Below are positions 33,201 through 48,998 of a stretch of DNA of 55,007 nt, in pieces. This DNA is from a virus: positions 1 through 55,007 of IMG/VR virus record IMGVR_UViG_3300027971_000062. One strand, 5' to 3'. The notes below the pieces were generated by a model. It saw only the letters and a program-made list of their open reading frames with translations, searched no databases and was not told the DNA's origin. A program made the translations under genes and the position numbers. The number at the start of each line of letters is the position of its first letter. Positions within the stretch are counted from its first letter, which is position 1.

Positions 33201-33736
33201 GGTGTTGCCCTCCTGAGAGATTCGCCCTTGACCGCGATCCACGCGGCGCAGTCGTGCAGCCGGTCCCACACGCGCGCTCCGTAGCGCGCCTGGAACTCGG
33301 CGGATTTGAGGTTCGTCGTGATCAGCAGCGGACGCGCGTCCGCGTAGTAGGTGTCCACGAGCTCGTCGAGGTCCACGAGGAACGATTCCTTCTTGTCCGC
33401 GTACTCGGTGCCCAGGTCGTCGATGCACAGGCCCGCGCTGCCGTAGTACCGAGCGCGCGATTCCTGGTCATACCGGCTCGAGGCCGCGAACGTCGTCGCG
33501 CGCGTGAACACGATCCTGGTCGGTCGGAGCAGGCACCAGCGGGCCACCGCGACGGTCTTACCCACACCGACGGGACCGCTCAGGACGACGACGTTCTTGT
33601 CGTCGCTGTTCCAGGTGTCGAGGGACTGCACCGCGGGCTTGCTCGCGTCCGCGCGATACGCAGCCTCGACCGACCGCTCGGGCCAGCCTCGCTGGAGCAT
33701 GTACCCCCGCTTGAGGCGGAAGTCCTCGGGCGTCAT
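33197..33736 (-). CDS. DnaC/DnaI-like AAA+ helicase loader
   Basis: 179 aa. Walker A GPVGVGKT (residues 54-61), Walker B LCIDDLG (103-109) and sensor-1 LLITTNL (137-143) are in the spacing of DnaC-type loaders; a C-terminal RVWDRLHD could hold the arginine finger/sensor-2. It follows a replisome-organiser gene with a start-stop overlap, the order seen in many temperate phages (like lambda O-P). It probably loads the host replicative helicase at the viral origin. Confidence 0.85.
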   Translation of the reverse strand: MTPEDFRLKRGYMLQRGWPERSVEAAYRADASKPAVQSLDTWNSDDKNVVVLSGPVGVGKTVAVARWCLLRPTRIVFTRATTFAASSRYDQESRARYYGSAGLCIDDLGTEYADKKESFLVDLDELVDTYYADARPLLITTNLKSAEFQARYGARVWDRLHDCAAWIAVKGESLRRATP

Positions 33737-34752
33737 CGCGCCACCATCCCCGGCGCGTGCTCGCGCAGCCAGGCCTCCTCGGCGTCGATGTCGTCGTTGG
33801 TGATCAGGTTGGCTTCGGCAACGCGACCGTAGCGCGAGCCGTCGCCCTTGGTTTCAGCGGCGCGCTTGGCGGCGAGTTGATCCCACTTCTCGCGCAGCTT
33901 GTCACCCGACAGGATGTTCTGACGCCAGAACGAGTCACGCTGGCACCAGTCGATCATCGCGTCGATCTCCTGCCAGGAGTGCCCGTCGCGCTCGTGCAGC
34001 AGCCGGAAGGCGTCGGTCCAACGCTCGGCCTTGGTGCGGCGCTGATCCGGTGTGAGTTTCGCCAGCGTGCTGGTTGGCGTGTTGGCCGCGATCAGCCCCA
34101 TGAGGCGTATCGCTGCCTGCATCGACTCCGGAGAGGCTGCTACCCCTCGCTTAGGCCTTGCAGCTCGGGCCTGTCCTGACGCGGTCCCTGCCGCAGGCGG
34201 GGACGACGTAATACCAGATCCTGTTCCTGTTCCTGTCTCCTGTTCCTGAATCGGGGAAGGGTAGCGGGAGGCTTTCGCCAAGGCTTTGCGAAAGGCTTCC
34301 GCGAAGGCTTTCGCAAAGGCTTCCCCCAAGGCTTTCGAAAACGACTCCAGCTTTAACAGGTACTTGTTCTTCAGGTCGCAGTCCGGAACCTCGTCCCATG
34401 CCTTCGCCCAGGACCGGATGACGTTCGGACTCTGGGGCCTAGCGGTCTCCCGCGGCTCCCCCGCAGAGTCGAACAGAGCCTTGGAAAGGACCACCATCCC
34501 GCCCTTCCAGGAAGCCTCTGCCATACCTTTCGATAAGACTTCCGCGAAGGCTTCGCGAAAGGCTTCGACTGACCATCCGAGGTCCGCGGCCATGACCAGA
34601 TCACCCGCGACCACAAGGCCCGGGAGCGCGGTGGTACGCGGCCCGCAAAGCAGGTAGAGCCACAGGGTCTGCGCGTTCGCCTGCGCGGAGGTCAGCGCAC
34701 GGAACCGCTCGTCCGTCCAGACCGCGACTTCGATCTTGCGGTAGCGCGACAT
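33733..34752 (-). CDS. Replisome organiser / replication initiation protein
   Basis: 339 aa from ATG 34752, overlapping the repressor stop. The N-terminal winged-helix block (RYRKIEVAVWTDERFRALTS, WLYLLCGP, TTALPGLV, AADLGW) is typical of phage replication initiators. The centre has tetrapeptide repeats (FSKA LGEA FAKA FAEA) encoded by 12-bp DNA repeats. The C-terminal part (WTDAFRLLHERDGHSWQEID, IDWCQRDSFWRQNILSG) matches the end of related initiators that contact the loader or helicase. The origin may lie inside this gene, as in lambda O. Confidence 0.8.
   Translation of the reverse strand: MSRYRKIEVAVWTDERFRALTSAQANAQTLWLYLLCGPRTTALPGLVVAGDLVMAADLGWSVEAFREAFAEVLSKGMAEASWKGGMVVLSKALFDSAGEPRETARPQSPNVIRSWAKAWDEVPDCDLKNKYLLKLESFSKALGEAFAKAFAEAFRKALAKASRYPSPIQEQETGTGTGSGITSSPPAAGTASGQARAARPKRGVAASPESMQAAIRLMGLIAANTPTSTLAKLTPDQRRTKAERWTDAFRLLHERDGHSWQEIDAMIDWCQRDSFWRQNILSGDKLREKWDQLAAKRAAETKGDGSRYGRVAEANLITNDDIDAEEAWLREHAPGMVAR
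34268..34339 (-). repeat. Six 12-bp iteron-like repeats in the initiator gene (origin candidate)
   Basis: Read on the plus strand, six adjacent 12-base units (consensus AAGGCTTTCGCG with changes in the last six bases) fill 34268-34339. A second group of three related units lies at 34535-34570. On the minus strand they encode Ala/Lys/Glu tetrads. Tandem iterons inside an initiator gene are how lambdoid phages build their origin. TGTTCCTGT direct repeats follow at about 34221-34248. Confidence 0.6.
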
Positions 34753-34976
34753 CAAACCCCCAGCAACTCGGAAACCGTTGTCTTGACGATCCCGGCGAAG
34801 TCCACGAGGCGCTCCGCTGGGATCGACTGCAAGCCATGCTCGATCTGACACCACTGAGACCTCGAGATGTCGAGCCGCGTTGCGGCGGTCTCCATCGTGA
34901 TGCCAGCGGCGATCCGCGCCTTCTTCAGTCGCTCTGCGATGGCTTTCCGCGGCCTGTCTCTGCGTAGTGCTGCCAT
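34752..34976 (-). CDS. HTH XRE-family (Cro/CI-like) regulator
   Basis: 74 aa from ATG 34976. RLKKARIAAGITMETAATRL and DISRSQWCQIEHGLQSIPAE form a standard helix-turn-helix of the XRE family with little else, so Cro-like or a short repressor. It leads the leftward replication operon and is divergent from the HNH/exonuclease operon, so it most likely controls both through the 140-base intergenic region. Confidence 0.8.
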   Translation of the reverse strand: MAALRRDRPRKAIAERLKKARIAAGITMETAATRLDISRSQWCQIEHGLQSIPAERLVDFAGIVKTTVSELLGV

Positions 34977-47478: not shown

Positions 47479-47727
47479 TCAAATTCGGCGCGCGAACCCG
47501 TCGGGGTCCAGGCTACCAGTGATCCACACAGCGTCGTCGTCCTCGCAGACGAGCAGCCCGCGCACCGCGCGCAGGCGCGCGATCAGACCCGCTTGACTCT
47601 TGCGCTTGCTCGCGACGCGCCCGCCCCATGGCTCGAGGCCATCGAGCAGATCTTCCTGATAGAAGCCGCGGGCCGCGCGCATGATCGCCTCGCGCTCGAC
47701 GACGGACAGTCGCTCAAGGCGAGTCAC
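47479..47727 (-). CDS. Small protein coupled to the cytosine methyltransferase
   Basis: 82 aa from a GTG overlapping the methyltransferase stop. Helical start (LERLSVVEREAIMRAARGFY), then LLVCEDDDAVWITGSL. No motif recognised. Co-translation with the methyltransferase is likely. Confidence 0.55.
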   Translation of the reverse strand: MTRLERLSVVEREAIMRAARGFYQEDLLDGLEPWGGRVASKRKSQAGLIARLRAVRGLLVCEDDDAVWITGSLDPDGFARRI

Positions 47728-48907
47728 GGTCGTCCTCCTCGGAAGATGCTGTCGAGGGCTGCGACGATGAACGTCGCCGCGACCTGGGGGACGATCGCGT
47801 TGCCGTAGGCGCGCAGCTTTCCCACTCGACCGGATACCCCATGAGCCAGCGGGAATGATCCGGGCTCAACTGGCCTCCACTTGCCGTCTCGGCAGGGGAG
47901 CCAGTCAGCATCTCGCCAGTAGCTGTGATCCGCACCGTGCCGATGGTCCGCGCCATCTGATCCATGCCCATCTCCTCCTTGCGGTCGCCGCTCCGAGATC
48001 GGAAGTTGTCCGTCTGGGGAGTCGGCCACGCCGCGAGCTGGGCCTGCAACGACGGGTGCGTGATCGCGGTGCGCGGCCCCGATTTCATGTTCGCCTTCAT
48101 CGCCTGGTAGTTCTCCAGGGTGTTGCCGATCTCCGTCGCGACCGGGGTCGCCCAACTCGCGAGCCTTGCCTCGGTCGGGAGCCCTCCGGTCCCTCGCCGC
48201 GTCGTCGGTGGGCGCTCGCCTTTCTCGTCGCTCTTGAGCGGCGTTGACCAACTCGTCATGCGCGCTGCGCTCGTCAGCGTGTGACTCGGCGCCAACCGTG
48301 TTTCGGTCACCGGGCGAACCCCCGTCGATTCCGAGTCCTCGCGAACCGGCGTCGGCCAGCCCGCCATGCGCGCTGCGTCCGTCAGGGTCGTTCCGCTGTG
48401 ACCCGTCAACGTCTCGCGCTGCTGACGCTGCGCGGACCTCGGCCTCCCGTCGTCCGCGTACCCATGCCGCGCCGAGTCGCTGGAGTCGCTCGTCGTCGGT
48501 GTAGGCCACGAACCAGAGTCGTTGGCGACGGTGCGGGGCGCCGACGCCCGCAGCGCACAGATCTGCCGCAGCGCAGGTGTAGCCCGCACCTTCCAGGTCA
48601 GCGAAAACAGCGTCGAGCCAGCGGAGTCCGTCAGGGCTCGCAACCTGTTCGCCAAGCACGATTGGAGGTCGGCACTGGTCAATGAGCTTGAACCAGGCGG
48701 GCCAGAGGTGGCGCTCGTCGGCAAACCCTCGTCGCCCACCGGCTGCGGAGAAGGGCTGACAGGGGCAGCTCCCGGTCCAGATGCTGGCGTCGTCGGGCAC
48801 GCCTGCGAGGCGCAGGGCGAGGCTCCATCCGCCGATGCCGGCGAAGAAGTGCCGCTGTCCAGGCCCGGAAACGTCAGTTGCTGAAAGGTCGGTGATCGAT
48901 CGGTCAT
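47714..48907 (-). CDS. Overlapping +1-frame ORF with WPTP repeats, inside the methyltransferase gene
   Basis: 397 codons without a stop in the frame next to the methyltransferase. The product has five W-P/S/A-T-P units (SWPTPTTSD, GWPTPVRED, SWSTPLKSD, SWATPVATE, AWPTPQTDN) and a C-terminal LSPDHSRWLMGYPVEWESCA. That WPTP...WLMGxP pattern is the one I know from free-standing phage proteins encoded just after cytosine methyltransferases. Here it is read from the same DNA as the methyltransferase variable region and motif X. It may be a true overlapping gene or a frame relic; the GC-rich context makes long shadows common. Confidence 0.4.
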   Translation of the reverse strand: MTDRSPTFQQLTFPGLDSGTSSPASADGASPCASQACPTTPASGPGAAPVSPSPQPVGDEGLPTSATSGPPGSSSLTSADLQSCLANRLRALTDSAGSTLFSLTWKVRATPALRQICALRASAPRTVANDSGSWPTPTTSDSSDSARHGYADDGRPRSAQRQQRETLTGHSGTTLTDAARMAGWPTPVREDSESTGVRPVTETRLAPSHTLTSAARMTSWSTPLKSDEKGERPPTTRRGTGGLPTEARLASWATPVATEIGNTLENYQAMKANMKSGPRTAITHPSLQAQLAAWPTPQTDNFRSRSGDRKEEMGMDQMARTIGTVRITATGEMLTGSPAETASGGQLSPDHSRWLMGYPVEWESCAPTATRSSPRSRRRSSSQPSTASSEEDDRDSP

Positions 48908-48998
48908 CTACGGCTCCCTGGGCGACGTGCCCCGCGGCGATCAGGTTACGCAGCCAGTCGGCTGCGTAAGGCTCGATCTCGTTGTACAGCGCGGTCAC
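47724..48998 (-). CDS. DNA cytosine-5 methyltransferase
   Basis: 424 aa from a GTG coupled to the upstream stop. Motif I HFFAGIGGWSLAL (50-62), motif IV GSCPCQPFS with nucleophile C80, motif VI-like GEQV (116-119), motif VIII-like APHRRQRLWFVA (153-164) and C-terminal motif X AYGNAIVPQVAA are all present. The variable region (170-370) is unusually hydrophilic with repeated LADA/VADS-type units where the recognition domain should be. It probably protects viral DNA from host restriction. A second long frame overlaps most of it (47714-48907). Confidence 0.85.
   Translation of the reverse strand: MTALYNEIEPYAADWLRNLIAAGHVAQGAVDDRSITDLSATDVSGPGQRHFFAGIGGWSLALRLAGVPDDASIWTGSCPCQPFSAAGGRRGFADERHLWPAWFKLIDQCRPPIVLGEQVASPDGLRWLDAVFADLEGAGYTCAAADLCAAGVGAPHRRQRLWFVAYTDDERLQRLGAAWVRGRREAEVRAASAARDVDGSQRNDPDGRSAHGGLADAGSRGLGIDGGSPGDRNTVGAESHADERSAHDELVNAAQERRERRAPTDDAARDRRAPDRGKARELGDPGRDGDRQHPGELPGDEGEHEIGAAHRDHAPVVAGPARGVADSPDGQLPISERRPQGGDGHGSDGADHRHGADHSYWRDADWLPCRDGKWRPVEPGSFPLAHGVSGRVGKLRAYGNAIVPQVAATFIVAALDSIFRGGRP

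Follow-up and report, generated by a model that had tools for sequence, protein, structure and literature searches.

Does the methyltransferase locus of this virus encode one protein or two proteins read from the same bases? The window, that is, the whole stretch of DNA that we analyzed, is itself an IMG/VR virus record of 55,007 bases. An earlier sequence-only reading had reported a second long frame inside a cytosine methyltransferase gene. ORF reading shows that both frames are open and that both lie on the minus strand. We call the methyltransferase frame (frame 0) alpha and the nested frame, which is +1 relative to it, beta. Alpha starts with a GTG that overlaps the stop of the upstream ORF. 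The ATG of beta lies some 90 nt downstream of the alpha start and is preceded, at a distance of six bases, by AGGGAG. The features of the locus, in window coordinates and with the evidence in parentheses, are as follows.

47724..48998, minus strand: alpha, putative large subunit of a C5-cytosine methyltransferase, 424 aa (PF00145, PHROG_363, and M.HhaI matches)
47714..48907, minus strand: beta, nested ORF of 397 aa with an ATG start, proposed target-recognition and motif-IX subunit (PHROG matches, selection tests)
48905..48919, minus strand: candidate ribosome-binding site and ATG of beta, inside the alpha coding sequence (AGGGAG at 48914-48919, ATG at 48905-48907)
48828..48848, minus strand: alpha motif I, FFAGIGG (alpha alignment)
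48747..48764, minus strand: alpha motif IV, PCQPFS, with the catalytic cysteine (alpha alignment)
48636..48653, minus strand: alpha motif VI, GEQVAS (alpha alignment)
48542..48691, minus strand: beta helix and hairpin, residues 73-122, including LTWK, also coding for alpha as far as motif VIII (structure model, synonymous constraint in alpha)
48504..48536, minus strand: alpha motif VIII, PHRRQRLWFVA (alpha alignment)
48008..48508, minus strand: the five WPTP/WSTP/WATP units of beta, residues 134-300 (translation)
47934..48485, minus strand: "LADA" linker of alpha, the WPTP units of beta read out of frame, with selection mainly in the frame of beta (pair and conservation tests)
47859..47921, minus strand: conserved alpha segment YWRDADWLPCRDGKWRPVEPG, upstream of motif X (alpha alignment, conservation given beta)
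47822..47878, minus strand: beta motif IX, GGQLSPDHSRWLMGYPVEW, dual-coding with the C-terminal segment of alpha (beta alignment, selection tests)
47766..47816, minus strand: alpha motif X, LRAYGNAIVPQVAATFI (alpha alignment)

Among the relatives, ATG was the start chosen for beta in 90 of 99, and SD-like cores were found in 77%, although these figures are biased because the start was picked for the best SD. The window also carries a GP88-like protein (PF17338; 42323-43909, minus strand) and a DnaD-like helicase loader or replication initiator (33733-34854, minus strand).

Division of motifs between the two frames

Alpha matches PF00145 (DNA_methylase) in Pfam with an E value of 5e-17, covering alpha residues 68-173 only, and PHROG_363 with an E value of 4e-80. 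The family profile of its catalytic part matches M.HhaI (E 6e-18). Across 39 aligned alphas, motifs I, IV (PCQ), VI, VIII, and X are conserved, as in other C5-methyltransferases (PF00145), but no stretch of alpha resembling motif IX is seen. The sequence-only reading had considered motifs I-X intact in alpha. This was mistaken, as motif IX lies in beta.

The translation of beta bears out what had been said of it, namely a 397-codon +1 frame with WPTP, WSTP, and WATP units and a WLMGYPVEW end. The units (WPTP, WPTP, WSTP, WATP, and WPTP) begin at residues 134, 184, 220, 252, and 294, and the motif-IX-like end reads SRWLMGYPVEW. In 53 betas, GGQLSPDHSRWLMGYPVEW at this end is nearly invariant. 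Across the family, each beta has 0 to 7 WPTP units spaced about 36 aa apart, and the tryptophan of LTWK is kept in 109 of 110 relatives. The LADA and WPTP patterns do come from the same DNA, as had been noticed: GLADAG in alpha (48345-48362) and GWPTPVRED in beta (48335-48361) share bases.

Searches with beta matched PHROG_31772 (E 1e-27) and PHROG_1008 (E 8e-26), both labeled DNA methyltransferase. Beta had no Pfam family match, and its profile matched no solved structure in the PDB. The structure model of beta is poor (pLDDT 56, pTM 0.26) and too weak for a fold search. Its best-modeled part is the helix and hairpin segment, with a local pLDDT of 70-90.

A few relatives depart from this layout. 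In EBPR siphovirus 2 gp44 (L101:2001-4496), an intein with a LAGLIDADG domain sits at PC|Q of alpha motif IV. The intein cuts the beta frame; the rest of beta is open, with a possible new start (MKIHDLF) in the intein DNA. This is consistent with the first ~45 residues of beta being dispensable. Five alphas carry a single in-frame stop with beta still open (TGA in L079, L074, and L176; TAG in L105 and L152), which may reflect a sequencing error, a pseudogene, or recoding of the stop. At L170:5047-6090, a downstream DNA methyltransferase-like ORF, TSPPYFGLRDYG, has at its end a near copy of the C-terminal tail of beta, which looks like a duplication of the 3' part of an alpha/beta gene onto this ORF.

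Selection in both frames

The length of the +1 frame is weak evidence for a second gene because the run in the window had P=0.027 when synonymous codons were permuted within alpha, a gene of 68% GC. Stops, on the other hand, are depleted in the +1 frame only. For 69 non-redundant relatives, the +1 frame had 249 stops where 406 were expected, and the +2 frame had 917 where 901 were expected; for 110 relatives, the counts were 344 versus 583 in the +1 frame and 1344 versus 1270 in the +2 frame. In L082, the closest relative (90% DNA identity), neither frame is interrupted. Stops in the second frame of close relatives had been named beforehand as the observation that would speak against a second protein, and L082 has none in the beta frame.

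We compared 133 close pairs (70-98% identity) by codon position. In the overlap, alpha positions 1, 2, and 3 are beta positions 3, 1, and 2. Mismatch at alpha positions 1/2/3 was.12/.09/.37 in the N-terminus, where alpha position 3 is fastest. It was.28/.20/.20 in the linker and.17/.08/.11 in the IX block, and in both of these the wobble position of beta is fastest. In motif X, alpha position 3 is fastest again, at.10/.08/.24. Sign tests on 68 independent pairs, with every locus used once, gave ratios of alpha position 3 above alpha position 1 to the reverse of 65:1 in the N-terminus, 7:56 in the linker, 3:49 in IX, and 52:4 in X. In finer bins, the reduction in change at alpha position 3 sets in some 80 codons ahead of where motif VIII ends, and therefore part of the catalytic domain is dual-coding. 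The sequence-only reading had proposed a synonymous-rate analysis, and the reduction that it looked for is present over motifs IV-VIII and IX, with both blocks selected in both frames.

We also measured the conservation of each frame given the other. Beta conservation, given alpha and its codon use, had a mean z of 1.2 before beta, 11.4 at alpha 121-150, and 17.7 at alpha 381-400 (110 relatives). Given beta, the alpha linker near IX is little conserved (z about 0-4), and conservation is strong from GFWRDADWLxCRDGKWRPVEPG through motif X. Relatedness inflates these z values, so the argument is carried by the contrasts between regions and by the independent pairs. The entropy z of the +2 frame is high as well, because the frames share wobble bases and because of relatedness, and frame specificity therefore rests on the stops and the phase switch. 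An indel tally (888 not a multiple of 3) was set aside as an artefact, since nucleotide gaps had been counted ungrouped. Based on the pair test and on conservation in both directions, the linker is mainly that of beta, and both frames make use of about 80 codons before VIII and about 35 around IX. The alpha linker is under little or no selection in its own frame.

Both frames are thus under purifying selection, and the selected frame switches along the gene. These observations bear directly on the idea of a chance open frame in GC-rich DNA whose family-like pattern is a shadow of the conserved alpha protein. Such a shadow would fit the modest P value for ORF length, the fact that a shift of frame turns LADA into WPTP and back, and LTWK, which is partly a shadow of the conserved DLE of alpha. 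However, the phase switch already contradicts a chance frame, as does stop depletion confined to the +1 frame. Beta is also conserved beyond shadow expectation, and relatives at 49-60% GC show the pattern too. We find a chance frame barely credible. Judged from these sequence comparisons, beta is a real gene, and the overlap with its dual coding is almost certainly real. That two proteins are encoded together, one of two options left standing by the sequence-only reading, is supported by the frame-specific selection in both frames and by the unbroken beta frame of L082.

Another explanation is that programmed ribosomal frameshifts, +1 after VIII and back after IX, produce one methyltransferase chain of normal order. 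The DNA order is indeed colinear (I-VIII, WPTP block, IX, X), the middle block alone is out of phase, and one-chain relatives exist. However, selection in the +1 frame sets in some 80 codons ahead of where VIII ends, in a part of the gene in which alpha is selected as well, and this counts against frameshifting because a product that shifts after VIII never translates that part of the +1 frame. Beta also has candidate start and SD sites. We consider frameshifting very unlikely and favor two chains with separate starts.

Spread, annotation, and one-chain relatives

Beta is nested in the +1 frame of alpha in 183 of 183 viral and phage loci with a beta match. Scanning bacterial genomes yielded 408 confirmed relatives, and the overlap is present in all of the best 80 of these 408. 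Both the viral/phage and the bacterial loci are best-scoring sets with some near-duplicates. The overlap recurs in phages and in bacteria of about ten phyla; the bacterial record titles include Alphaproteobacteria, Gammaproteobacteria, Desulfobacteraceae, Acidobacteria, several Bacillota, Bacteroidetes, Chlorobiota, Verrucomicrobia, Chloroflexi, Nitrospirales, and Coriobacteriia. When two phyla were sampled evenly, the beta family was found in 2/296 and 7/296 genomes.

No stand-alone beta or WPTP gene was found, and beta never occurred without alpha, in the 263 loci made up of the 183 viral/phage loci and the best 80 of 408 bacterial loci. The sequence-only reading had described WPTP proteins as separate genes usually placed after methyltransferases, which does not agree with the nesting seen in all of these loci. 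Since no stand-alone WPTP gene was found, those separate proteins were probably nested ORFs annotated alone. Its concern that the WPTP product might lack independent homologues was half borne out, as a non-overlapping homologue was not found, yet nested homologues exist. A second protein is still supported despite this, because the beta frame itself is under selection. Its other option, that WPTP proteins arose by frame reuse of a methyltransferase recognition region, is only partly right; what holds is that the alpha linker is an out-of-frame reading of the WPTP region of beta.

Annotation usually covers one half only. The N15 annotation has alpha only, and in Porphyromonas phage 018a and Stenotrophomonas phage SOVA965, beta is annotated and alpha is not. 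In one-product records, the other frame is present but unannotated. For K1G, PhiXhv-28, and Sitara, annotators list both frames as methyltransferases, in Sitara as "g59 internal gene." In a prophage of E. coli Ec1117 (L311, record positions 2057858-2059027), RefSeq calls the gene two incomplete pseudogene fragments. One chromosome of an uncultured Roseovarius genome has five identical-looking alpha/beta loci (L264-L268), which suggests repeated prophages or other mobile elements.

Actinophages have single-chain relatives of the enzyme. In Mycobacterium phage Moonbeam gp69, motifs I-VIII, LPTP units, MMGWPAGW, and motif X are all in one frame, and the protein is matched by both PHROG_363 (alpha) and PHROG_1008 (beta). 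Its catalytic part aligns with alpha (hhalign Prob 99.5), and its C-terminal part, VIII to X, aligns with the WPTP-to-IX part of beta (hhalign Prob 94.8, E 5e-8). The predicted fold of L203, which is near-identical to Moonbeam gp69, is that of a C5-methyltransferase (HhaI, E 5e-12), with the LPTP stretch unmodeled (pLDDT below 50). The actinophage enzymes share the catalytic domain with the window's family, and their LPTP units and MMGWPAGW are homologous to the beta C-terminal part. They differ in that the catalytic domain shares its frame with motif IX and the later LPTP units, whereas at the window locus the WPTP units and IX are in the +1 frame.

We ruled out that the actinophage enzymes are overlap-free monomers, as they too have a selected +1 ORF. 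It spans at least 102 codons around motif VIII. Its product has the hairpin ETWPTSGMTRNG and, in most cases, the first LPTP unit, and selection acts in the +1 frame as far as the stop of this ORF and in frame 0 beyond it. The return to frame 0 therefore falls after IX in the window's family and before IX in actinophages. Since motif IX is in the frame of alpha in the actinophage branch, beta need not always carry it. A locus in an actinobacterial genome (L325:793-1752) is a hybrid: its +1 frame holds the hairpin and LLPTPTAMD, and its frame 0 holds the helix, IX, and X. A simple frameshift origin, from a one-chain ancestor with two compensating indels, was rejected as a full account because the beta helix and hairpin over IV-VIII are selected in both frames and have no frame-0 counterpart in the one-chain relatives.

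The one-chain relatives also bear on whether beta is a separately functioning protein, such as an anti-restriction or regulatory factor, that overlaps a self-sufficient methyltransferase. The missing Pfam match and a structure model too weak to place the fold would suit such a protein. However, alpha has no motif IX, and its VIII-X stretch is selected mainly in the frame of beta. Furthermore, the WPTP-IX part of beta is homologous to the VIII-X stretch of one-chain relatives, and beta always accompanies alpha in the 263 loci. We consider a separate function unlikely.

A proposed two-subunit enzyme and its known counterparts

The locus very probably encodes a two-subunit DNA cytosine-5 methyltransferase with the subunit genes nested in the same DNA. 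Alpha, in frame 0, would provide AdoMet binding, the catalytic cysteine, and motifs I-VIII and X. Beta would be translated separately from its own ATG and supply motif IX together with the helix, the hairpin, and the WPTP units, the parts found between VIII and X in a one-chain C5-methyltransferase. In alpha, the WPTP block would be read in the other frame as the "LADA" linker, and the first ~45 residues of beta would be the alpha N-terminal region read out of frame. We infer that the two chains assemble as a heterodimer to form one enzyme, which would methylate phage DNA, most likely against host restriction. No restriction enzyme was recognized among the ten neighboring ORFs scanned, which makes an orphan anti-restriction role seem likely. 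The WPTP units may act in target recognition and set DNA specificity. The target-recognition domain (TRD) is more likely in beta than in alpha because the alpha stretch from VIII to X is mainly beta-selected.

More tentatively, and as something possible rather than probable, this may be an old obligate dual-coding module spread across many phyla of bacteria and across phages. The +1 frame would be a modular target-recognition subunit in which WPTP units (the 0 to 7 described above) are gained, lost, and exchanged, changing DNA specificity while leaving the catalytic chain untouched, and the frame-0 return point would have moved past IX in some lineages only. If the two-subunit reading is true, annotation gives a single protein for many methyltransferases of phages and prophages, N15 and epsilon15 among them, though the DNA encodes two, and expression or activity tests of one ORF would fail or mislead. 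The family provides hundreds of diverged, fully nested, same-strand gene pairs with a clean selection signature, which should be useful for studies of frame sharing.

A nested two-subunit C5-methyltransferase is already known as a kind from M.EcoHK31I, in which the beta gene lies inside the alpha gene in a different frame and methylation requires both products. In the window's family, the proposed small-subunit gene is likewise nested in a second frame, and both frames are selected. M.EcoHK31I (YGGCCR; Lee, Kam and Shaw 1995, cited in PMC3404938) consists of two polypeptides, a large one with I-VIII and X and a small one with IX, as summarized in PMC3404938. The two systems agree in this division of motifs. 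They differ in that beta here has 397 aa and five WPTP units. The summary in PMC3404938 also places the TRD of M.EcoHK31I in the large subunit, whereas the VIII-X stretch here is mainly beta-selected. Neither the M.EcoHK31I sequence nor an EcoHK31I-like restriction-modification plasmid was found in the sequence collections searched.

Fragments of C5-methyltransferases that are cut between VIII and the TRD can be reassembled, and M.AquI (alpha/beta, CYCGRG) is naturally split once, within the variable region, into two polypeptides, of which the small one carries both IX and X (PMC3404938). The window's proposed enzyme resembles M.AquI as a C5-methyltransferase naturally in two polypeptides, but here X is in alpha and the genes are nested. 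The monomeric enzymes of solved structure, M.HhaI and M.HaeIII, are alike in that the catalytic part of alpha matches M.HhaI, and unlike in having all motifs in one chain and one frame; neither is known to have an overlapping gene. The literature searched gave no account of this overlap in phages, and the family breadth, selection signature, and shifting frame-return point appear to be undescribed there. If the two-subunit reading is right, the family would also point to the position of the target-recognition region in M.EcoHK31I-like enzymes.
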